DNA of 9,992 bases from Candidatus Bathyarchaeota archaeon (GTDB lineage Archaea > Thermoproteota > Bathyarchaeia > 40CM-2-53-6). The notes under the pieces are model-generated. The model did not search any database and was not told where the DNA came from. It worked only from the letters and a program-made list of their open reading frames with translations. Shown here piece by piece: positions 1 through 9,992 of this stretch. Position 1 is the stretch's first letter; every line of letters starts with the position of its first letter. Made by a program: the position numbers and the translations under genes. Location: the NCBI GenBank assembly GCA_005888695.1, contig VBBH01000155.1:1-9992 (forward strand), written 5' to 3'.

Positions 1-113
1 TCTTGTCCCTCTATCCATCCAAGCCGTTCAACGGTCTCATTTGGCAACACAACAACGTACTTGACGTAGACTTTGTTTCCTCGTTTCTGTGAAAGCTGTT
101 TCTGTAATCTCAA
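1..113 (-). CDS. AbrB-like small DNA-binding protein, N-terminal part only
   Basis: A leftward gene runs off the left edge. From a TTG at 113 the frame reads 37 codons with no stop, starting MRLQKQLSQKRGNK and continuing KYVVVLPNETVERLGW. The pattern 'K-Y-V-V-x-L/I-P-x-E-x-x-E-x-L-G-W-x-x-G' is the N-terminal half of archaeal AbrB/MazE/SpoVT-type swapped-hairpin proteins, which bind DNA as dimers and often repress their own or neighbouring genes. An AT-rich box on the same strand (150-142) sits about 30 nt ahead of the TTG, so the transcript could be leaderless; no Shine-Dalgarno is seen. The C-terminal half lies outside the window, so length and partners are unknown. Family assignment is by motif only. 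Confidence 0.6.
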   Translation of the reverse strand, partial: MRLQKQLSQKRGNKVYVKYVVVLPNETVERLGWIEGQ

Positions 114-127
114 AGCAGGCCGGCTTT

Positions 128-164
128 TCGGTACCTAATTGTTAAATAATGCGTCGGTACCTAA
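128..164. repeat. Two 11-bp direct repeats flanking a TATA-like box
   Basis: TCGGTACCTAA occurs at 128-138 and again at 154-164, a start-to-start spacing of 26 bp. Each copy contains the palindrome GGTACC. The AT-rich stretch TTAAATAAT (142-150) lies between them. The arrangement sits in the gap between a leftward AbrB-like gene and a rightward tRNA-like locus. Paired sites bracketing a TATA element are a typical archaeal repressor layout, so this is a candidate operator, possibly for the AbrB-like protein next door. That role is inferred. Confidence 0.6.
142..150. promoter_or_regulatory. Candidate TATA box, possibly serving both directions
   Basis: TTAAATAAT is the only strongly AT-rich box in the gap. 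On the minus strand it reads ATTATTTAA and is centred about 33 nt from the TTG at 113, which would start the mRNA close to that codon. On the plus strand it would start RNA near 170-175, ahead of the tRNA-like locus. Position and composition are the only evidence. Confidence 0.45.
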
Positions 165-218
165 ATAGAACTCATGGAACCATTACAAGCGTCCGACCTG
201 AAAGACGCCGTAGGAAGT

Positions 219-309
219 AAACCGGTGACTCTACCGACTGTCGCCAGTTCGTCGGAAGACGAACGACCTCACACGGCGAAGGTCGTGGGTTCGAATCCCA
301 CCCGGCCCA
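219..309 (+). tRNA. tRNA-Val(CAC)-like locus, intron-interrupted, degenerate 5' half
   Basis: The 3' half is convincing: T stem GTGGG (285-289), loop TTCGAAT, T stem CCCAC (297-301), acceptor strand CCGGCCC (302-308) and A at 309, with no encoded CCA. The anticodon loop CTCACAC (268-274) gives anticodon CAC (Val), and its 3' stem GGCGA (275-279) pairs exactly with TCGCC (241-245). The 22 nt between are an intron-like hairpin. The 5' half is poor. The acceptor partner would be AAACCGG (219-225), which pairs at only four of seven positions. The D arm (228-239) would have three pairs and a 4-nt loop without the usual GG. No GGGCCGG lies upstream in the window. It may be a decayed tRNA, the 3' half of a split tRNA, or a duplicated integrase attachment site. 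Confidence 0.55.
246..267 (+). other. Intron-like 22-nt hairpin in the tRNA anticodon arm
   Basis: Removing these bases joins TCGCC to CTCACAC and GGCGA and restores a normal 5-bp anticodon stem with a 7-nt loop. The insert itself folds as GTTCGTC (247-253), loop GGAA, GACGAAC (258-264), a perfect 7-bp stem. The junction falls near tRNA positions 31/32 rather than the usual 37/38. One C can be assigned to either side, so the exact splice points may shift by a base. Flanking pairing (240-243 with 264-267) only loosely fits a bulge-helix-bulge motif. Confidence 0.55.
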
Positions 310-340
310 CTACTACGTTAGTCCGGGGCGCACAAGACTG

Positions 341-360
341 TTTCTTTTTTCGTTTACTTT
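341..360 (+). terminator. T-rich terminator after the tRNA-like locus
   Basis: The tract TTTCTTTTTTCGTTTACTTT begins about 30 nt after the tRNA-like 3' end. Runs of T without a required hairpin are the usual intrinsic stop for archaeal RNA polymerase. It suggests the tRNA-like locus is, or was, a transcription unit separate from the gene at 410. Confidence 0.5.
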
Positions 361-383
361 CAAAAACAGGATTCCACAAGGTG

Positions 384-393
384 TAGTTTAATT
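384..393 (+). promoter_or_regulatory. Candidate TATA box for the MarC-family gene
   Basis: TAGTTTAATT lies 17-26 nt ahead of the TTG at 410, and no Shine-Dalgarno lies between them. This spacing fits a leaderless or nearly leaderless archaeal transcript. It is supported by position only. Confidence 0.35.
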
Positions 394-409
394 CTCGCCA
401 GTTCAGCCC

Positions 410-1054
410 TTGTCAACGATCCATCGCAAGGCTGGGGAAGAATATTTGGCTCCGGGTGACTTTCTCTTTGAACTGTTGAAAGCAACCGTCGCACTCTTTG
501 TAATCGTGGATCCGATTGGTCCTGTTCCTATATTTGCGAATCTCACGAAGACATTGACCCCTGTGGAGAAGAGGAAGGTTTTCAGAACGGCGGCGATCGT
601 TGGGGCAGTCCTGCTAGCCGCTTTTGCACTGGTTGGCCAAGAACTTCTGCTGCTATTCGGGATTACACTCCCTAGTTTTCAGATCGCTGGAGGATTCATT
701 CTGTTCATATTAGCTATCGACATTATCTTTAGGGGAGAGCGCACCGACAAACAAGCTCTCTCCTCAATTGAGGAAACTGCCGTCTTCCCGATCGCATTCC
801 CATTGCTCGTAGGTCCTGGAGCAATCACAACAACTATGATCTCCATCCAGTCATCCGGAATAGCGATAGCACTGATCGCCATAGTTATCGTCATGTCTCT
901 GAGCTGGATAGTCCTCAGACTCACAGATAGAATCTACCGGATACTAGGAAGGACCGGTTCCGCTGTTATCGCGAGAATAATGGCGCTCTTCATCGCTGCC
1001 ATAGCCGTCGAGTATGTTTTGCTTGGAATACAGCACTACTACCCGCCAGTATAA
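410..1054 (+). CDS. MarC-family integral membrane protein
   Basis: This 214-residue protein belongs to the MarC (UPF0056) family of inner-membrane proteins. Bacterial E. coli MarC was once linked to multidrug resistance, but the substrate is not established. Hydrophobic segments lie at about residues 18-42, 59-83, 87-107, 124-146, 148-170 and 186-208, matching the usual six helices. Two family signatures are clear: DPIGPVPIF at 34-42, and AVFPIAFPLLVGPGAIT at 124-140, where Pro-Gly-Ala-Ile-Thr is typical. The length is normal for the family. The start is taken as TTG at 410; a second TTG at 449 (residue 13) is also possible, because most family members begin only a few residues before the first helix. 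Its end converges on the giant gene with only 21 nt between the stop codons, so it is not part of that cluster. Confidence 0.9.
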   Translation: MSTIHRKAGEEYLAPGDFLFELLKATVALFVIVDPIGPVPIFANLTKTLTPVEKRKVFRTAAIVGAVLLAAFALVGQELLLLFGITLPSFQIAGGFILFILAIDIIFRGERTDKQALSSIEETAVFPIAFPLLVGPGAITTTMISIQSSGIAIALIAIVIVMSLSWIVLRLTDRIYRILGRTGSAVIARIMALFIAAIAVEYVLLGIQHYYPPV

Positions 1055-1075
1055 GTTGGACGAACATTTCACTTT

Positions 1076-4000
1076 CTAGTCATCGTCCTTCTTCTCCCTG
1101 TCTTCTTTGTCTTCGAAAGCTTTTGTTTCCCAACCTTCTTCGTCCTCGACGACCTTCTCTTTCCTATCACCGAAATACTCAGGCTCAGCCTCCACCTCTC
1201 GATGAGTGGGAGATTGCCAATATTGTCTAGTTGCATAGATCCCGAAAACCAATGCAACGATAGCAATTATAGCAATTACTAGCAATACGAAGTACGAAGT
1301 AACAGCACCACAATTGACAATCGGGTTCACTTGACATTCATAGTGTCCCGAGACAGTCCCCTTTGTGCTGAGGTCCGCACGAAGGTTCTCAGAGAAGAAC
1401 GAATCCCTCTCACCAAGCGGACTCATTGCCCATGAACCAGAGAGAGACCTAAACAACGCACTCCTTCCGGCAACGCTGAAAGATGAGCCTAGCGAGCCAA
1501 CTAGAGACCTGAAGAGGGAGGTCTTCTCAACAAAGCTCGATGCTGAACCAAACGAAGCACTCAGGTATACACTACGTCCTCTAAACAAGGAACTTGCAAG
1601 ACTCAACGAATCTGTCAAAGACCTGAAGAACGAATACTTCTGGGCATGATTTGAAGCCGAACCAAGTGAGGAAATCAAAACCCTGGCGAAGCCCTTGGTC
1701 TCTGAAGCAGCAAGGCCTATCGAACCGGTCAGAGATCTGAAGAGGGAAGTTCTCTCTACAACGCCTGAGGACGATCCCAGCGAAGCGCTGAGACTTTTGG
1801 CGAGCCCTTTGGCTTGGGAACCAGCAAGACCTATAGAGCTAGACAGAGTTCTAAACATGGAAGAACTTTCCGCAAAACCTGAGGTTGACCCCAGCGAACT
1901 AGTCAGAGACTTCGCGAGACCCTTAGTCTCTGAAATGACAAGCGACAGTGAACTAGACAGAGACCTAAACATAGAAATCTTGTCCGCAAGGCCCGATGCT
2001 GCACCCAGTGAAGTACTCAAGTTCACAGTACGACCTCTAAAGAGGGAACTAACAAGACTCACCGAACCGCTCAAAGACCTGAAGAAGGAACCTTTCTCAA
2101 CAAGACTAGAGGCCGAGCCAAACGAAGCACTCAAACCCTTGGCGAGGCCTTTGGTCTGAGAACTCACAACACTAAACGTGCCGGTTAGAGTTCTGAAAAT
2201 CGAAGTGTGCTCAGCAGAAGCAGACCCTGATCCCAGTGAACCTGTGAAGGACCTCGCAAAACCCTTGGTTTCAGAGGTAGCGAGGGACCACGAGTCAGTC
2301 AACGATCTGAAAAGTGAAGTGTGTTCGGTGAAAGCCGCGTTGGTAGTCCACGAATCACTCAGAGACCTGAAGAGGGATACTTTCTTGGCAAAACTGGAGG
2401 TTGAGGATAATGACCCGGACAGCGACCTGAAGATGGAAGTCTTCTCCGAGAAGGTTGACGTAGAACCTATCGAGGCAGACAAGTACACGGTATGCCCATT
2501 GAAGAATGAGCTCACGAAGCTTAGCGAATCGGTAAATGACCTGAAGTAAGACGCTTTTTCTGCAAAAAACGAGTTCACCGCCCAGCCTCCAATCAAAGAT
2601 CTGGAGATCGAGAGTCTTTCCACGAATCCTGTGCTTGATGAAATGGAACCAGCGAAGGACCTAGACCAGGAAAGCCTCTGGACGAAATTGGAAACAGTAG
2701 ATACTGAGTCGAGAAGCAAACGGAAGTAAGACGTCCTTTGCGAAATGCTTCCCAAAGAGCCGACCGAAGCGCTCAAGTTAACAGTTCTACCCCTGAGGAA
2801 AGAGACCACCATGCTCAGTGAACCGGTCAGAGACCTGAAGAACGATGCACTTCTGGAAGAACCGGAAGCTGACCCGAGAGAGACAGTCAAGGTAATGCTG
2901 CGACCATTGAATAGTGAGCTTGCCAGACCTAGGGAGCTGGCGATGGACCTGAACAACGACAGGTGCTTAGATAGGCTTGGGGCCGAACCTAGCGACCCAC
3001 TCAGGGTCTTACCCCAACCCTTGACCTGAGAACCGGCCAGGCTCAATGAGGTCGTGAGCGACCTGAAGAGGCTAGACTTCTCAGAAACGGTTGAGGATGA
3101 ACCGATCGAAACGCTCAGGTTCAGGGTCCTCCCGTTGAAGAACGAGCCAACGAAACTCAGCGAACCACTGAAAGCCCTGGAGTAGGACATTTTCTTAGTT
3201 ATCCCTGAGTTCACAGCCCAACCTGCACTGAAAGCCCTGAAACTCGAAATCTTTTCACTGAAACTTGAGGTCGAAGAGAAAAGACCTGCAAGAGACCTGA
3301 ATATGGACAGCCTCTCCACAAACGCGGAAGCGGCGGAGGCCGTTGCACTCATTGTCCTGAAGAGTGAGAATCGTTGAGTAGGACTAGATGCTAACCCGAT
3401 TGCAGTCGCGAGATTAACAGTACGTCCTCTGAAGAAAGATGCTCCGAAACCCAATGAACTAGTTAGAGTCCTGAAGAACGAGTTCTTCTCAGCGAGACCT
3501 GAAGCCGAGCCTACCGAGGCCGTCAGTCCAAGGATCCGACCTTTGAACAGTGAACCTCCGATAGTGAATGATCCGGTCAAAGATCTGAACCACGACATTT
3601 GTTCGGAGAAGCTAGTAGAGGAACCTAGCGATCCGACCAGATTCTCGATTAGACCCTTAGCCTGCGAACCGGCCAGACCCAAACTAGTGGTCAAAGACCT
3701 TAGCACTGATTTCCGCAAGTTGATAGCAGATGATATGGATAGGGAACCGCTAAGGGATCGGAAATAGGAGGACTTCCCGGCAAATCCGTAAGATTGGGAG
3801 ATCGATCCCATGAAAGACCTGAAGAGAGAAAGTCTTTCAGAGAGACTGGAGCCGGAACTCACAGCACCAGCAAGAGATCTGAAGTATGAGGTTTTATCTG
3901 ACACAGAGGAGAGCGAGGAGAATGATCCCGCAAGACTCCTGATGATAGAAAGCCTCTCCAGGAATCCGAGAGACGCCGACAGTGAACCGGCCAAAGCTCT

Positions 4001-7000
4001 GAATAACGATGATTTCTCACCTAGACCTGAGGCCGGACCAACGGAAGCGCTCACAGTTACAAACCGACCCCTAATGTAGGAACTAGCAAGACTCAAGGAA
4101 CTCATCAGCGTCCTGTAAAGGGAACTCTGCCTCGATAGGGTGGAGCTCGGACCCAGCGCCGTAGTTAGCCCGATGATACGTCCTCTAATAATGAAGCCTG
4201 AAAGACTCAGAGAGCCGGTGAGAGTCCTGACATACGAGAATTTCTCCGTCAGCGCTGTGACCGAGCCAAACGCTCCAGCAAAAGATTTGGCGAGTCCCTT
4301 TGTTTGAGAGCCGGCAGGAGAGATTGACCCACTCAAGGATCTAACGTAGGAATAGCGCTCAGAGACGCTCAGGACAGAACCCAGCGAACTGGTGAAGGAC
4401 CTGGTAAAGCCCCTCACTTGATTGCCCGCAAGACTCAACGAACCTGTCAGTGTCCTGAAGAACGATGATTTCTCAGCAAACCCTGAAACCAAAGAAAACG
4501 AGCCTGTCATCGACATGAAGAAGGAAGACTTCCCCGAGAAATTCGAGGAAATGCCGAAGGTACTACTCAGAATCTTGGCGATACTCCTACCCTGAGACTC
4601 GCCTAGTGAAATTGAGCCGGTCGCCGACCGGAAGTACGAAGTTTTCTCGTTAAAACCTGAAACTGAAGCCAATGAACTACTGAGACTCCTGAAGAGGGTC
4701 AGTTTCTTGGCCGGACCTGACACTGACGATAATGCACTGGTCAGGGACCTCAAGAAAGAGGACTTTTCCGCCAGGCTTGAGACCGAGCTTAAGGCGTCAG
4801 TCAACGACCGGAACAATGATGTATGTTCAGTGAGAGTTGTGACCGACCCGACAGAAACTCCGAGGTTTTCGGTCTTACCCGTGAAAAGCGAGGTGCCGAG
4901 CGTAATCGAACCCGTCAGAGTCCTGAGATAGGAGAATTTCTCGGCCAAAGCCGAAGACATGCCCATGGAAATGGTGAAGAATCTCGGGAAGTTCTTGCCC
5001 ATGGAACCCACAGCGCTTATCGAGGTGGCCAGAGACCTGAACAGCGCCGTGTTCCCAGCAAGACCTGAACTCAGACCCATGGATACCGTTGGTGACCTGA
5101 ATAACGAGATTTTCTCCGCAAAACTCGAAACGAGAGTGAGCGAAGCAGTAACGGACCTGAAATAAGATGATTTCTGGGCAGATCCTGAGTTCAAAGTCAG
5201 CGACCCGATGAGCGAACGCGACAGGGAGACCTGTCTGGCGAAGCTCGCAGCCAGAGTCCATGCACCGCTCAAAGATCTGAAAAATGAAGATTGTTCAGCG
5301 AAAGCTGATGTTAGACTTAGCGAACCGCTCAAGTTCTTGTAAAGACCCTTGACCTGCGAAGAACCTAGAGACAATGTGCCTGTTAGCGATCTGAAAAGAG
5401 AAACTTGCCTAGAGAAGCTCGAGACTGAAGCGAGTGAACCGCTTAGAGAACGGAATAGCGAATTCTTCTCGGCAATACTGGAGATTGAGGCGATCGAACC
5501 AGCCAACGAACGGAAAAGAGAATCCTGTTTGGCCAAGCTCATCGCCGAGCCAAATGATCCCGCCACGGACCTGAACAACGAATTCTTCTCGGCGAGGCCT
5601 GACGAAGGGCTTAGCGAGGCCACTAGGGCCTTACCTATTCCCTTTGCAATAGAAACGGCAGCGGTCAAAGTGTCGCTAAGAGATCGAAAGGAAGACGCCT
5701 GCTTCCCAAGACCCGATGCCATGTTCCAGTTTGCGGTAACCGTGGTCGAGCAGGATCGAGGACTAGTGTTGCAAACGAGCTTTCCGGAATCGACGTTCGC
5801 TACTAGGTTGCCTATTGTGATCGTGATCGAATCAGTGAGTGTTCTGAAAATGCCGTTCGAAGCAGCTCCGCTCGATGCTCTAGTTAGGAAGCCAATTAGC
5901 GATCTGAAGAATGACAACTTATCCGCAAGGCTTGAGGCTGATGCAAGCGAAGCACTCGCGCTCCTGAGAAAGGCGGTGTGCTCTGCAAGATTCGAAGCGG
6001 AAGTCAGGGCACCACTCAGGGATCTGAAAATCGAAGATTTCTCAGCTAGGCTCGAAGATGCAGTTAAGAAAGCCGATAGGATTTTGATGTAAGTAGTCTT
6101 CTCTGCAGAGTTTAGAATAAGAGATCCACTGAGACTCTGAGCTGAGTCCCAGTTGGGAGTGATAATGTCCGAAGCTGTGGAGACCGTCGTTTCTGTGGCT
6201 GTCGTGGCTGAGGTTGAACCAGAATATTGCATCACTGTCCAATACTCGACCGCGAGATACTTTCCGCTCCACCCACTAAACGTTGGCTGAGTCGCGGAAG
6301 TCCAAGTGTACTTCGTCGCAGTGGTTGACCCAATCACGTTATTCGTGGAGGTGTCCCAATTCTTGAACAGAAATGTACAGCTTCCGAGGCTGTTAGTTCC
6401 ACACTGCCACACCGTAATCCATAGTCTTCCAACAGGAGCCGTCGAACTTGCCGCGACGGTCAGGTCGAACTGCCAAGCGCCTGAGAAGATGTCCGATAGC
6501 CCGCTCTGGATCCCCGCCGTATTGTAGACCCAGGCGTAGCCGCTCGGAGAAGTCGTACTTGGCGTCCCGGTCGTTGTGCTGCTGGCAACATCAGGGCTGA
6601 TTGGATAGAATTTGACGGCGGACTGGAGAGCGTCGCAAATTACGAGCCAACGGTTGGAGTTTGTTCCGAACGGGCATGTCTGGCTCCCTGCACTGGAGGT
6701 GCCACCATCTTCTATGGCGTTACTAGCACCCGTTGCGGCAACGGTTGCCCTCAAGTTGAAGGGGGCCCCCCCGCTAGTTTCGGTTATCGAGCTTTCAGAA
6801 CCGAAGAGACCGACGACCAGATCGTTTGCATTTAGCGTCGTAACTCCTGTCGTAAGTTGTGGAGTGTTGGGGCCGCCTCCTGAACACTTCGAGTTTTGGT
6901 CGCTCAACGTTCCGAAGCCGGACGCCTGATCGAAAGCCCAATTGACAATAGTGCCCGTGGGCTCCTTTGCCCCCGTATAAGCGATAATCTGTCCGCTGAC

Positions 7001-7492
7001 AGCAGTCGGAGTTCCGCCAGCAAGAGTGATTGTCGTGGTCACTGAGGATAGAGCCGCTGATGTTGTCCCGATCCATTCTTCCATTCGTGCCGCACAATTG
7101 GTCGGAGTGTAGGTTTGGCGTGGGGTGGCTTGGAACGCTATGCCTGACGCTGATGGTGGAGTCGAGGCGGACACGGTTATCGATTGAGGATTGGTTACCA
7201 CTAGGAGGATGATTACATCGGATGTTCCAGAGGTGGTAAGCCCAGTAATTGTGAAAGTTGACCCTGAAGACCATGTTCCCGTCCTGTCAGGAGCGCTACC
7301 GGAATCCAAAGCTGGGCTCGAACCAATCGCGACACTCTGCGAGGTTCCAGTGTCTGCCGTACCAGAACTTGTTGCCAGTCCCTCGCACCTGCCGCTACAA
7401 CCTGGTACGCTTGAACTCCCGAGATAGAATGTGTGTACGTTGTTAACCGCGTGTCCGATAGGCATGGCTACCGCTAGAAGGCAGAGTATCAA
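1076..7492 (-). CDS. Giant repeat-rich cell-surface protein with C-terminal membrane anchor
   Basis: The protein has about 2,138 residues and is very probably extracellular. From the N-terminus it has a hydrophobic signal ending near GHA (residues 13-15), a Ser/Thr/Gly-rich beta-type region to about 450 containing patterns such as NANDLVVGLFG and FNLRATVAATG, and about 80 degenerate 20-residue repeats to about 2030. A linker with Cys-x6-Cys then leads to a membrane helix (about 2066-2086). A highly charged tail of about 46 residues follows, ending EKKDDD. The topology is outside-facing with a cytoplasmic acidic tail. The repeats resemble the Ser/Leu 'R-S-L-x-x-S-L-S' repeats I know from other archaeal surface proteins. 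The TTG start at 7492 gives a signal lacking basic residues. The frame stays open upstream to 7595 and encodes KLRLLTA just before it, but contains no ATG, GTG or TTG. It may act as adhesin, fibre or sheath; function is unknown. Confidence 0.8.
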   Translation of the reverse strand: MILCLLAVAMPIGHAVNNVHTFYLGSSSVPGCSGRCEGLATSSGTADTGTSQSVAIGSSPALDSGSAPDRTGTWSSGSTFTITGLTTSGTSDVIILLVVTNPQSITVSASTPPSASGIAFQATPRQTYTPTNCAARMEEWIGTTSAALSSVTTTITLAGGTPTAVSGQIIAYTGAKEPTGTIVNWAFDQASGFGTLSDQNSKCSGGGPNTPQLTTGVTTLNANDLVVGLFGSESSITETSGGAPFNLRATVAATGASNAIEDGGTSSAGSQTCPFGTNSNRWLVICDALQSAVKFYPISPDVASSTTTGTPSTTSPSGYAWVYNTAGIQSGLSDIFSGAWQFDLTVAASSTAPVGRLWITVWQCGTNSLGSCTFLFKNWDTSTNNVIGSTTATKYTWTSATQPTFSGWSGKYLAVEYWTVMQYSGSTSATTATETTVSTASDIITPNWDSAQSLSGSLILNSAEKTTYIKILSAFLTASSSLAEKSSIFRSLSGALTSASNLAEHTAFLRSASASLASASSLADKLSFFRSLIGFLTRASSGAASNGIFRTLTDSITITIGNLVANVDSGKLVCNTSPRSCSTTVTANWNMASGLGKQASSFRSLSDTLTAAVSIAKGIGKALVASLSPSSGLAEKNSLFRSVAGSFGSAMSLAKQDSLFRSLAGSIASISSIAEKNSLFRSLSGSLASVSSFSRQVSLFRSLTGTLSLGSSQVKGLYKNLSGSLSLTSAFAEQSSFFRSLSGAWTLAASFARQVSLSRSLIGSLTLNSGSAQKSSYFRSVTASLTLVSSFAEKISLFRSPTVSMGLSSGLAGNTALFRSLATSISAVGSMGKNFPRFFTISMGMSSALAEKFSYLRTLTGSITLGTSLFTGKTENLGVSVGSVTTLTEHTSLFRSLTDALSSVSSLAEKSSFLRSLTSALSSVSGPAKKLTLFRSLSSSLASVSGFNEKTSYFRSATGSISLGESQGRSIAKILSSTFGISSNFSGKSSFFMSMTGSFSLVSGFAEKSSFFRTLTGSLSLAGNQVRGFTRSFTSSLGSVLSVSERYSYVRSLSGSISPAGSQTKGLAKSFAGAFGSVTALTEKFSYVRTLTGSLSLSGFIIRGRIIGLTTALGPSSTLSRQSSLYRTLMSSLSLASSYIRGRFVTVSASVGPASGLGEKSSLFRALAGSLSASLGFLERLSIIRSLAGSFSSLSSVSDKTSYFRSLAGAVSSGSSLSERLSLFRSFMGSISQSYGFAGKSSYFRSLSGSLSISSAINLRKSVLRSLTTSLGLAGSQAKGLIENLVGSLGSSTSFSEQMSWFRSLTGSFTIGGSLFKGRILGLTASVGSASGLAEKNSFFRTLTSSLGFGASFFRGRTVNLATAIGLASSPTQRFSLFRTMSATASAASAFVERLSIFRSLAGLFSSTSSFSEKISSFRAFSAGWAVNSGITKKMSYSRAFSGSLSFVGSFFNGRTLNLSVSIGSSSTVSEKSSLFRSLTTSLSLAGSQVKGWGKTLSGSLGSAPSLSKHLSLFRSIASSLGLASSLFNGRSITLTVSLGSASGSSRSASFFRSLTGSLSMVVSFLRGRTVNLSASVGSLGSISQRTSYFRLLLDSVSTVSNFVQRLSWSRSFAGSISSSTGFVERLSISRSLIGGWAVNSFFAEKASYFRSFTDSLSFVSSFFNGHTVYLSASIGSTSTFSEKTSIFRSLSGSLSSTSSFAKKVSLFRSLSDSWTTNAAFTEHTSLFRSLTDSWSLATSETKGFARSFTGSLGSGSASAEHTSIFRTLTGTFSVVSSQTKGLAKGLSASFGSASSLVEKGSFFRSLSGSVSLVSSLFRGRTVNLSTSLGAASGLADKISMFRSLSSSLSLVISETKGLAKSLTSSLGSTSGFAESSSMFRTLSSSIGLAGSQAKGLAKSLSASLGSSSGVVERTSLFRSLTGSIGLAASETKGFARVLISSLGSASNHAQKYSFFRSLTDSLSLASSLFRGRSVYLSASFGSASSFVEKTSLFRSLVGSLGSSFSVAGRSALFRSLSGSWAMSPLGERDSFFSENLRADLSTKGTVSGHYECQVNPIVNCGAVTSYFVLLVIAIIAIVALVFGIYATRQYWQSPTHREVEAEPEYFGDRKEKVVEDEEGWETKAFEDKEDREKKDDD
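1390..6130 (-). repeat. About 80 tandem degenerate 60-nt (20-aa) repeats
   Basis: This is the repeat array inside the giant gene. The main unit (type A) reads roughly EKxSLFRSLTGSLSxxSSxx and repeats every 20 residues, so the DNA has a 60-bp period. Two variant units alternate with it: type B, KGLAKSLxxSLGSxSxxxE, and type C, RGRTVNLSASVGSxSxxxE. A to B spans 18 residues and B back to A spans 20. The count of about 80 comes from array length divided by period, not from alignment. Copies are diverged, with no long identical stretches, so the array looks old and kept by selection on protein sequence. Alternating Leu/Phe and small residues suggest a beta-solenoid or fibre. Confidence 0.85.
5720..5850 (-). 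other. Non-repeat insert within the giant protein's repeat array
   Basis: At about residues 548-592 the repeat register is broken by a segment reading TDSITITIGNLVANVDSGK, then a Cys-x6-Cys stretch (CNTSPRSC) and VTANW, before units resume. It has no FRSL core and carries the only cysteines of the array. It might be a small disulfide-closed loop or domain marking a hinge. The call rests on visible sequence only. Confidence 0.6.
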
Positions 7493-7569
7493 TGCGGTCA
7501 GGAGTCTGAGTTTCGCGGCTTCGACTCTCCCCTGTGAAGGGAACGGCCAACTAGTCCGGCGGACGAATA

Positions 7570-7587
7570 CACGTGTTGTAACACATG
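7570..7587. promoter_or_regulatory. 18-bp near-perfect palindrome upstream of the giant gene
   Basis: CACGTGTTGTAACACATG has arms GTGTT and AACAC around a GT centre. The symmetry continues for three more positions on each side with one mismatch. It lies about 80-95 nt ahead of the giant gene's TTG in the 214-nt gap. Its size and symmetry fit a dimeric regulator's binding site. No clear TATA box was found beside it, so the promoter remains unplaced. Confidence 0.4.
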
Positions 7588-7643
7588 ATGTTCAGCACGG
7601 GAACCTAGGGCGATGGCATTCGCTGTTCGAAGAGGTCGGGATT

Positions 7644-7667
7644 ACTCGGAGACTAAAACATCCGAGT
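7644..7667. terminator. Hairpin between the secreted-protein gene and the giant gene
   Basis: ACTCGGA (7644-7650) and TCCGAGT (7661-7667) form a perfect 7-bp stem around a 10-nt loop. On the leftward transcript the loop contains TTTT. It starts about 40 nt after the stop codon of the gene ending at 7707. It could end that transcript, protect its 3' end or separate expression of the two genes. There is no U-run directly after the stem, so the terminator label is tentative. Confidence 0.35.
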
Positions 7668-7706
7668 CTCGGGTTTAGCTTTCCTGCATGCGCTGATTGG
7701 CACGCC

Positions 7707-8402
7707 TTAGCTCCACGTCCAAGTGATGGTCCACGTGATCTGTATCGTGTCCCCAACCTGGAGCGTGATGGCGCTGAATGTTGCAGCGGCGAGGTTTACT
7801 CTTTGGGCTGCGTTGTTCGCAGCTTGGTTTACCAAGCAGCTCTGGGCAACGGTAGTCGCTACAGTGTTGTCAGTGAAGGTGTTTATGACCGTAGAACTCT
7901 TCGGTGAGCTTCCCGTGATGTCTGTCACTGCACCCCCAACGGCGACGAAGCCGTTCGTTGTAAGCTCTGCCCCACCGTTTTGACCACCAGAACCACCTGC
8001 GTTCCCGCAGTCACCGCTTGACGATGCGCCGTTCACTCCAGTAGACGACTGCCCAGGTAAGGGAGCGGCAGTGTTGCTAGACATGGCGATAAAGTGGAAG
8101 CTGCAAGATGCTGATACTGCACAGAATCCCTCGTTATTGGACGTGACCAGTTTTTCGACGTATTGAGCACCAGTGTCGAACATTACGTTGTGGACTGACT
8201 GACACTGAGGAGTGCCACCAGCTGGGGTGTAGCATTCTTGGAAGTTCGCGTCTAACACTTGGTAGTAGTGTCTGTTGCCCCATGGATTCCAGTTCCCGGT
8301 GGCCACGTAGCCTCCGATGAAGAAACTGGAGATTACAAGTGCCGTCGCCAAGAGAGCAATAGTACCCCTCTTCTTGTTCAATTCAATTTTGAGAAACTTC
8401 AA
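7707..8402 (-). CDS. Secreted or pilin-like surface protein with phage-tail-like C-terminal domain
   Basis: The protein has 231 residues. The N-terminus MKFLKIELNKKRG is basic and is followed by a hydrophobic stretch (about 14-36), then an outside region. The KKRG-hydrophobic pattern resembles archaeal class III (type IV pilin) signals cut after Gly, though an uncleaved anchor is also possible. Residues about 100-231 (FHFIAMSSNTAAP, ELTTNGFVAVGG, FSAITLQVGDTIQITWTI) resemble a domain I know from archaeal and phage structural proteins, usually 'IALSxDxxAP...EITTNGL...GDxLxxTWT'. Six cysteines (57, 67, 94, 100, 132, 189) could form disulfides. A Gly/Ser/Asn-rich stretch at 125-144 looks like a linker. 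The TTG start is fixed by a strong Shine-Dalgarno. It probably acts at the cell surface with the giant protein encoded next in line. Confidence 0.65.
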   Translation of the reverse strand: MKFLKIELNKKRGTIALLATALVISSFFIGGYVATGNWNPWGNRHYYQVLDANFQECYTPAGGTPQCQSVHNVMFDTGAQYVEKLVTSNNEGFCAVSASCSFHFIAMSSNTAAPLPGQSSTGVNGASSSGDCGNAGGSGGQNGGAELTTNGFVAVGGAVTDITGSSPKSSTVINTFTDNTVATTVAQSCLVNQAANNAAQRVNLAAATFSAITLQVGDTIQITWTITWTWS

Positions 8403-8411
8403 TCTATTCTC

Positions 8412-8421
8412 TCACCTCCTT
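8412..8421 (-). promoter_or_regulatory. Strong Shine-Dalgarno fixing the TTG start at 8402
   Basis: On the minus strand the sequence reads AAGGAGGTGA, a full match to the 16S anti-Shine-Dalgarno, 9 nt ahead of the TTG. It is far stronger than anything before the other genes here and suggests heavy translation of a structural protein. Confidence 0.8.
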
Positions 8422-8524
8422 CCGACTGCTTATTCCGAGAGGCGCATTGGACTCCTTTCTTCTCGCCTTTGTAACCCTACGAAACCTGGACCGGTACTAT
8501 GCCGAAAAACGGAGGACCTGATTG

Positions 8525-8920
8525 TCAGTCCTGCACTGGTTCATGTTCATCTTCTACTCCTCCCTCTTCTTTCCTCGGAGACTCCTCCCATTCATCTTCT
8601 CGTGCAGACTTGAACACTGTACCTGATGGGAATGCTCCTCCTACACGAGGTGCGTTGCTGACATGCTTGGACGCTTCACGTCGGAACGAGAACAGGCTGA
8701 GACCGGCAACGATCACTGAAACCAACAGAATCATTATCGTAGTAGGCGTGAAGCTTGCCTCTGGTCCTGCCGAGTTGCCCACGTTGAGTGATCTCTGATA
8801 GGGAATCCCAGCGTAAACGAAAACACTCGCGCTGATTATGACTAGTGTCGAAACCAGTAGGAGCTCCAACCTGAAAGATTTCTTGTCGACAAGATTCAGG
8901 ATTACTCTGAGGTTTTTCAT
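8525..8920 (-). CDS. Two-helix membrane protein with acidic C-terminal tail
   Basis: I do not recognise this 131-residue protein. It starts with a basic MKNLRVILNLVDKKSFR, has a helix at about 18-38, a short probably external loop and a second helix at about 60-80 (TTIMILLVSVIVAGLSLF). A cytoplasmic tail containing DEWEESPRKEEGG then ends in an acidic extension. The second helix and tail align with the C-terminal part of the protein encoded just upstream (pattern TPxT...F-R-x-A-S...A-P...W-E-E-S-P-x-K-E-E-G). The ATG follows the upstream stop by 3 nt, with GAGGGTGA about 10 nt before it, so translation is probably coupled. The end of the gene seems to have lost its original stop, adding about ten residues. 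A membrane role linked to its neighbours is likely; activity is unknown. Confidence 0.75.
   Translation of the reverse strand: MKNLRVILNLVDKKSFRLELLLVSTLVIISASVFVYAGIPYQRSLNVGNSAGPEASFTPTTIMILLVSVIVAGLSLFSFRREASKHVSNAPRVGGAFPSGTVFKSAREDEWEESPRKEEGGVEDEHEPVQD
8546..8593 (-). repeat. Duplicated gene-end module, copy 1
   Basis: This copy encodes EWEESPRKEEGGVEDE near the end of the two-helix gene. It matches copy 2 at 28 of the first 30 positions, then differs by 2 nt in length, then matches for the last 13 nt (AGTAGAAGATGAA). The shared block in copy 2 spans stop, gap and next start, so copy 1 preserves a former stop-start junction now read through. Confidence 0.8.
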
Positions 8921-8965
8921 CTTCTACTGCTCACCCTCTTCTTTCGTCGGAGACTCCTCCCAATC
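8916..8965 (-). repeat. Duplicated gene-end module, copy 2
   Basis: This copy covers the DWEESPTKEEGEQ end of the five-helix gene, its TAG stop, AAG, and the ATG start of the two-helix gene. It appears to be the intact form of the duplicated block; copy 1 lies 370 bp further along the transcript. Confidence 0.8.
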
Positions 8966-9571
8966 GTCGTTTACTCGCATAGACCGCAGCTGCAAGGGCA
9001 AGCTTCCTGCTTCCTCGGTTGAAGACAGGCCTATTGCCGACGCATCTGGAGGCATCGATGACGGACTTGTAGGCGATAACCCCTGTCTACCTGGAGCATA
9101 GCCAATTCTCATTGACGCACCACGTTGTAACCAGAACATGCCGAAATTGACGACGAGTATCAAGACTGCCACGATCACAAAGGTAACAGGCGAGAGGACT
9201 ACTTCTCCGCCGCTTCCTATGAAGGAAGAGGCGAAGAGCGCTGAGATCGTGAATATCGGCATTGTCAGTGCTCCCGAGAAGACTGACGCTAGAGCCATCT
9301 TCCGGCGTACTACCGCCAGGTAGACGTTGAGGCCAACAACAGTGGAAACTGCTGACGTGAGATAGACGACGCTGAGCGAGAGGCGCGTGCCGTCATTCGC
9401 TGCCCGGCTTAGGATACCGGTATTGATGAAGGTTTGACTCATGAAGAGTTGCACGAGACCTATAATCGCTACTCCCTGGAAGAGATAGGGAAACAATGAG
9501 GGCATGTCAAAGTCGAATAAGGCAATGAGCAGGCTCATGGCCAGGAAAATTATTATCCCCAGAACTATCAA
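8924..9571 (-). CDS. Five-helix membrane protein with acidic C-terminal tail
   Basis: I do not recognise this 215-residue protein. Hydrophobic segments lie at about residues 2-19, 27-48, 65-88, 92-117 and 126-148. A cytoplasmic tail of about 65 residues follows, Pro/Ser-rich in the middle and ending DDWEESPTKEEGEQ. From about residue 126 on it resembles the two-helix protein encoded next, which suggests a shared module. The only usable start is TTG at 9571, because an in-frame TAG lies about nine codons upstream and no other start codon falls between them. GGAG precedes the TTG by only 3 nt, a poor spacing. It follows the AbrB-like gene by 44 nt in the same direction and is probably cotranscribed. 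It could be a membrane scaffold or assembly partner for the surface proteins; no catalytic motif is visible. Confidence 0.75.
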   Translation of the reverse strand: MIVLGIIIFLAMSLLIALFDFDMPSLFPYLFQGVAIIGLVQLFMSQTFINTGILSRAANDGTRLSLSVVYLTSAVSTVVGLNVYLAVVRRKMALASVFSGALTMPIFTISALFASSFIGSGGEVVLSPVTFVIVAVLILVVNFGMFWLQRGASMRIGYAPGRQGLSPTSPSSMPPDASAIGLSSTEEAGSLPLQLRSMRVNDDWEESPTKEEGEQ

Positions 9572-9615
9572 GAACTCCGGAAGTAGCGCCGTCTTCTATC
9601 CAGCCCTGATTCTCT

Positions 9616-9804
9616 CTACTTCTGCTTCTGCTCGTTCAGGGAACGTTCCTTGATCTCGTAGATCAGTCGTTGTCCCTTCGGCGACTCTCCGATCGAGAGT
9701 ACTAGGACACTCTGATCATTGATCTCAAGCAGTTGCGCCAGATCCTTCGGAATCAGGAGGTAGTGGCTTCCCTTGATTCGTGTCGGTGTTAGTTGAATTG
9801 CCAA
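9616..9804 (-). CDS. AbrB-like (swapped-hairpin) transcriptional regulator
   Basis: This is a 62-residue protein. Residues 4-50 fit the AbrB/MazE/SpoVT fold: a strand with basic residues (LTPTRIKGSHYLLIPKDL), a short helix (AQLLEI), then a strand rich in Val/Leu (SVLVLSIGE). The 'LLIPKDLAQLLEI' core is the family's most recognisable part. Such proteins form dimers and bind DNA as repressors, or serve as antitoxins. No toxin gene lies beside it; the next gene is a membrane protein, so local control of the surface cluster is more likely. It is the first gene of the leftward series. The start is TTG at 9804 with only a weak AGG-type site before it. No clear TATA box was found. Confidence 0.6.
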   Translation of the reverse strand: MAIQLTPTRIKGSHYLLIPKDLAQLLEINDQSVLVLSIGESPKGQRLIYEIKERSLNEQKQK

Positions 9805-9847
9805 ACCTGCTTATTTCTCCCAACCAGACGGCTAACCGGAACTAAGC

Positions 9848-9987
9848 TACGGCTGGGGAATACCCCTGTTGTAACCTCGAACTGGAAACTAGAAGGAACA
9901 GATCCCTGTTTCCACAAGGATGCAGAATCAGCGGGAATGCGTGAACTGTCCGGTAGAAACGCTCTTCGCAGAATGGGCCAAGAATGA
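9848..9987 (+). pseudogene. Possible C-terminal remnant of an IS605-type OrfB (TnpB) gene
   Basis: In the plus frame ending at TGA 9985 the sequence reads NTPVVTSNWKLEGTDP, CFHKDAESAGMREL and ends GQE. This resembles the loosely conserved tail after the zinc finger in some archaeal OrfB/TnpB proteins. No zinc-finger cysteines or catalytic DED-type residues precede it, so at most a short end remains. A small hairpin, GGGG-AATA-CCCC (9855-9866), lies at its start. The opposite strand is also open throughout. The resemblance is from memory, and the stretch may be noncoding. Confidence 0.25.
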
Positions 9988-9992
9988 TTCGG

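Follow-up and report, generated by a model that had tools for sequence, protein, structure and literature searches.

A conserved locus with a giant repeat protein in Bathyarchaeia: a candidate surface fibre system related to thread-type pilus loci

A contig of Candidatus Bathyarchaeota archaeon (VBBH01000155.1, positions 1 to 9,992; this whole stretch of 9,992 nucleotides is called the window below) carries, behind a small AbrB-like gene, genes for two membrane proteins (mem215 and mem131), a secreted protein (secreted231) and a giant repeat protein. Do these genes build one structure at the cell envelope and, if so, of what kind? We lean towards the view that the locus gives soil Bathyarchaeia a fibre or adhesin at the cell surface and is related to the loci of thread/bundling pili, and that the conserved gene set probably builds a long, membrane-anchored surface fibre. 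The initial annotation had suggested a single envelope or appendage system. That idea is well supported by the conserved gene order, by an acidic W-E motif nearly confined to the locus and by the occurrence of mem215 with pilin-type subunits. The genes are as follows.

9616-9804, minus strand: AbrB/MazE-like protein of 62 amino acids, first gene of the operon
8924-9571, minus strand: mem215, polytopic membrane protein with about five helices (hydropathy) and a DDWEESPTKEEGE tail
8525-8920, minus strand: mem131, N-terminal pilin-type export segment, C-terminal last helix of the mem215 type and WEESP tail
7707-8402, minus strand: secreted231, N-terminal helix, then a part with six invariant cysteines, and a DTIQITW C-terminal motif
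1076-7492, minus strand: giant, with a head, 20/18-residue repeats, a C-terminal cysteine module, a helix and an acidic EGWETK tail

Gene order and W-E tails

All five genes lie on the minus strand across 1076-9804, in the order AbrB-like, mem215, mem131, secreted231 and giant. The short gaps of the initial annotation hold between mem215 and mem131 (3 nt) but not before the secreted gene (122 nt) or the giant (214 nt). A scan of a genome collection with the secreted protein as query gave 15 public loci with the same order and few gaps besides contig ends, which bears out the initial observation. Thirteen of these loci bear Candidatus Bathyarchaeota in their titles, one is called 'archaeon' and one 'bacterium', and depths in cm within many titles suggest a soil habitat. 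With the window included, the secreted and giant genes are found at 16 of 16 loci, mem131 at 14, mem215 at 13 and the AbrB-like gene at 12. Genes are missing from L001 and L014 because both contigs start inside the secreted gene; L003 has neither mem215 nor an AbrB-like gene at this site, and none of the latter was detected in L015. A search of 256 class genomes located secreted231 in 16, mem131 at full length in 16 and the C-terminus of the giant in 16; these three sets, although not identical, all fall within genomes G001-G020. No relative was confirmed in IMG/VR viral contigs, and a viral origin of the locus was rejected as far as that database tells.

None of the five operon proteins matches a Pfam family over cut-off; NCBIfam gave none for mem215, mem131, secreted231 or the giant, and PHROGs none for mem215, mem131 or secreted231. 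Only sub-cut-off matches, for example to Cation_efflux (mem131, E 0.01) and Phage-MuB_C (giant, E 0.0082), came from these scans.

Considering all open reading frames (ORFs) of at least 100 residues at 16 loci, an acidic W-E motif lies within the last 60 residues of 22 out of 174, every one of them a mem215, mem131 or giant. The [DE]WEE[SA]P pattern, searched in 10 of the 20 clade genomes, is encoded at 15 sites in these 10, of which 14 lie within mem215 or mem131 and the fifteenth in a frame without evident likeness to either; the reversed control gave 0. For the EGWE type, searched in 18 of the 20 (G009 and G014 were left out), there are 21 coding sites, all but one at giant C-termini; the exception codes for EGWERK and lies on another contig. 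Since basic residues follow the last helix, the tails, including DDWEESPTKEEGE of mem215, are probably cytoplasmic.

Membrane proteins and their pilin-type neighbours

The initial annotation described two membrane proteins with the same C-terminal module. This is upheld by hhalign, which pairs the last 69 columns of mem131 with the end of mem215, comprising its last helix and its tail (probability 99.4, E 5.5e-22). W204-E205-E206 of mem215 are invariant over 22 alignment rows, and W111-E112 of mem131 over 14. Hydropathy gives mem131 two helices. Its N-terminus aligns over 39 columns with the pilin-type family A3 (probability 90.6, E 1.3e-6; probability 83.1 with a larger alignment). To judge from its sequence, mem131 appears to be a chimera of a pilin-type export segment and a mem215 end.

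Relatives of mem215 (E 0.001 or better) occur in 60 of the 256 class genomes and in 25 of 398 genomes in a draw from the phylum, mostly of the same class. At 28 of 31 sites within the class, a member of the mem215 family lies directly upstream of a thread-type pilin gene. These 31 are the sites whose surroundings were fetched, and represent part of the sites in the 60 genomes; L123 (fragments) and L124 and L125 (marginal matches at unrelated genes) were left out. L121 and L122 are outside the class set and without a pilin-type neighbour; L059 and L060, where such a neighbour is present, are considered separately. Part of the adjacency is circular, because family A3 was built from mem215-adjacent genes at 14 of the 31 sites; at the sites not feeding that family, the neighbour is of pilin type in 14 of 17. 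The mem215 family may thus help to assemble thread-type pili. The membrane proteins had been tied to giant repeat proteins in the initial annotation. Relatives of mem215 without giants do exist, yet they then stand beside pilin-type proteins, so the idea is redirected rather than refuted.

Modelling indicates a thread/bundling-type subunit fold for the pilin-type relatives beside mem215, the fold having been predicted for one member of this alternative cargo. Searches of PDB sequences with families A3 and A1 gave no match better than E 0.4.

The two kinds of cargo replace each other between the same flanks. In L060 (G008), an AbrB-like gene, a W-E-tailed mem215, a 192-residue pilin-type gene and a 339-residue gene, the last also matched by the pilin profile (E 3.7e-5), lie between a SufC-like gene and MscL/MarC (MscL identified by Pfam, SufC and MarC by eye). 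In L010 and others these flanks enclose AbrB, mem215, mem131, secreted231 and the giant. Genome G001 has two separate sets, a pilin set by MscL/MarC-like genes (L059) and mem131, secreted gene and giant elsewhere (L003). The pilin profile A7 is found in two of the 20 clade genomes (L059, L060), in neither case beside giant-type genes. The wide spread of the pilin set suggests that it is the ancestral one.

Inspection by eye revealed a different small regulator-like gene upstream of the mem215-like gene in L041, L042, L049 and L054, in the position of the AbrB-like gene of the window; a Pfam scan of the L042 copy named no family. Downstream of the thread-type pilin gene, L042 and L049 carry, by eye, genes resembling class III-type archaeal pilins and A24 peptidases.

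Giant protein, secreted protein and upstream motifs

As the initial annotation had it, the giant is a repeat protein, presumably anchored, with an N-terminal hydrophobic segment, a C-terminal helix and an acidic tail. Its repeat region in the window covers about 1,550 residues with 55 anchor matches, and 49 of the 54 spacings are 20 or 38 residues, the latter read as 20+18. Autocorrelation peaks most strongly at 38 residues in 10 of 11 giants; in the eleventh, L003, this peak ranks second, after that at 20. The cysteine-helix-tail module at the C-terminus is conserved over 11 rows. The shortest giant frame has 1174 residues and the longest 2703, and some are perhaps cut or frameshifted. The window head aligns nearly full-length to five of 10 others (L003, L056, L008, L006, L011) and partially to L004 and L009, with no alignment at E 1e-5 to L007, L010 and L013. 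Compared with the second genes of pilin-type loci, giant heads give a best E of 4e-4 in a signal-containing stretch, which was not counted as homology. Several giant-type frames lie in tandem at L013:4588-12913, and an opposite-strand frame (L009:8876-11617, minus strand) has a head domain common to the giant.

Secreted231 has 303 homologues at E 0.001 or better, of which 120 were listed, and its invariant columns were determined over 18 rows. Hydropathy shows one N-terminal helix. The phage-tail-like domain that had been assigned to it found no support in Pfam, PHROG (up to E 1), IMG/VR or PDB searches.

The AbrB-like label stands on the initial annotation and on a single sub-cut-off match, of the L060 orthologue to MazE_antitoxin (PF04014, E 0.022); the window copy has no Pfam match. 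Two related motifs were located in the window:

7565-7583, minus strand: TGTTACAACACGTGTATTC, a palindrome-like motif ahead of the giant gene
9858-9876, minus strand: GGTTACAACAGGGGTATTC, a related motif ahead of the AbrB-like gene

The GTTACAACA core precedes the giant in 16 of 16 loci and the full motif TGTTACAACAYRYGTATTC in 15, the L003 copy having a 2-nt insertion. When up to 2 mismatches are allowed, each of six genomes holds 0-3 sites, against none for the reversed control; of these 11 sites, five precede giants and six lie near other genes. The motif before AbrB has 3 mismatches in the window and 2 in L002, and in the other 10 loci tested 5 to 9, within or near the shuffle range. Neither pilin-type locus (L059, L060) has a site within 4 mismatches. 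With six of the 11 sites near other genes and none at L059/L060, the motif was rejected as proof of a single regulon. The AbrB-like protein as its binder is a guess. In L021, L023 and L024, around position 1500, the same palindrome-like motif lies ahead of a similar-looking gene of about 140-165 aa, for which Pfam (L021) gave no family over cut-off.

Downstream of the giant, at a distance of 21 nt, is a MarC gene (410-1054), the sole clear Pfam match among six scanned proteins (E 5.3e-47). In L060 an MscL channel gene (9630-9980; PF01741, E 3.1e-21) lies between the cargo genes and MarC, and MscL was identified by eye at the same place in several giant-type loci; the window has none there. An ORF at 174-386 (plus strand) encodes KVVGSNPTRPTTTL, a stretch that is common where the 3' end of a tRNA has been misread as protein. 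Neither ARAGORN nor Rfam found a tRNA in the window, so an intron-bearing tRNA is possible.

Proposed arrangement and alternatives

We propose that mem215 is a membrane partner which elsewhere accompanies thread-type pilins, and that in the window mem131, secreted231 and the giant occupy the place of the pilin pair, which is missing. The giant would be exported and kept anchored by its C-terminal helix, so that its repeats would project from the cell as a long stalk whose head can be exchanged, possibly for adhesion. Mem215 and mem131 would form the membrane base, secreted231 would be an exposed co-subunit, and the acidic W-E tails of the giant, mem215 and mem131 may bind these proteins to one another, or all of them to a shared partner, on the cytoplasmic side. 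In a bolder form, which we offer tentatively, mem215 would be the membrane factor, so far missing, that assembles archaeal thread/bundling-type pili throughout Bathyarchaeia. Soil lineages would have re-tooled it, the pilin giving way to mem131 as a chimeric remnant of a pilin, to the secreted protein with its six cysteines and to the giant as a stalk, with the W-E tails as a cytoplasmic code that joins the parts.

Several observations weigh against the proposed fibre system with kinship to thread/bundling-pilus loci. Profile comparison shows no homology between the giant tail and the other tails, and a common descent with that of mem215 was rejected; the likeness of the giant tail to the others is therefore a short motif. 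The shared tails of the initial annotation accordingly hold as homology between mem215 and mem131, but in the giant only as a short W-E motif. The reversed control of the EGWE-type search gave 2 matches in the same 18 genomes. G001 carries the pilin set and the giant set at separate sites and has no mem215 beside the latter. Absences in clade genomes are soft, because genome completeness is not given. In the mem215 tree, two pilin-linked W-E rows group with two rows of unseen context (81/96), and the tree leaves the direction of change unsettled. Foldseek alone ranks the archaeal thread structure 7pnb seventh (E 1.7e-3), behind FimA entries. Apart from a weak signal match of 24-29 columns (probability 2 and 14), secreted231 has no likeness to the pilins by profile, and its AlphaFold model (pLDDT 35) was not used.

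Alternatively, the giant could be an S-layer-like stalk of the cell wall, similar to tetrabrachion, with the small membrane proteins as its export or anchoring helpers and the pilin link as a mere reflection of a general role of mem215 in the handling of proteins secreted to the surface. We consider this doubtful. The C-terminal anchor and long repeats would suit such a stalk, as would L121 and L122, where mem215-like genes outside the class adjoin long proteins that look extracellular by eye and are not of pilin type. Yet the range of giant frame lengths and the differing heads are unusual for a lattice protein, and within the class the pilin-type neighbour is very regular (28/31).

It is unlikely that secreted231 is a type IV pilin and that the locus feeds an ordinary archaeal type IV pilus machine. 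The likeness lies in its charged residues: KK or KR and G precede the hydrophobic helix in most homologues listed. The pattern was found in 109 of these 120, with G just before the helix in 103 of them and S in 6. Peptidase A24 and an over-cut-off T2SSE ATPase are each found in 15 of 20 clade genomes, and because of these genes elsewhere in the genomes secreted231 could be served by type IV pili. Against this, S replaces G in those six, the window protein has no pilin family match in Pfam or NCBIfam, and the ORF maps listed around the loci show, by eye, no ATPase, FlaJ-like or A24 gene. No machinery gene was thus recognised at the locus, the platform protein having been sought by eye only. No assembly ATPase was found there; over-cut-off T2SSE matches lie on other contigs or about 77 kb away (G019). 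Two short matches below cut-off are on operon contigs (G018:C139, G002:C38), at distances of about 4 and 8 kb.

That the genes are independent neighbours, still together by chance or because rearrangement is slow, is very improbable given an arrangement conserved over 15 other loci, the joint occurrence in G001 (L003) of mem131, secreted gene and giant away from their usual flanks, and a tail motif found in no other of the 174 ORFs, even though some of the gene order is plain vertical inheritance, since the Suf-like, MscL-like and MarC flanks are also syntenic in several loci, and the giant has an upstream motif of its own, which makes its co-transcription with the other genes doubtful.

The surface fibre that we favour would differ from the archaeal thread filament (Saci_0406, PDB 7pnb) in lacking such a pilin and in having mem131, secreted231 and giant as cargo; by sequence, no pilin of the thread/bundling fold was found at the window locus, and secreted231 is dissimilar by profile. 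In its idea the locus resembles TasA/TapA/SipW of Bacillus subtilis, where fibre subunit, accessory subunit and membrane protein are likewise encoded in one small operon (PMC9674648). For the window and pilin-type proteins scanned, Pfam gave neither a TasA nor a camelysin family over cut-off; the absence of TasA from the 50 rows listed in the thread/bundling subunit comparison carries no weight. In the library searched, no paper was found that treats archaeal bundling pili together with Bathyarchaeota, or that mentions a donor strand alongside these archaea.

Preceding thread-type pilin genes as regularly as it does, the mem215 family is a concrete candidate component, and since the same membrane partner is found with a very different, giant cargo in the window, the two arrangements can be compared. 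Since Bathyarchaeia are abundant and for the most part uncultured, surface structures that possibly govern their attachment in soil are worth knowing. If the bolder proposal is true, the re-tooled mem215-based system would be a type of appendage without a named counterpart.
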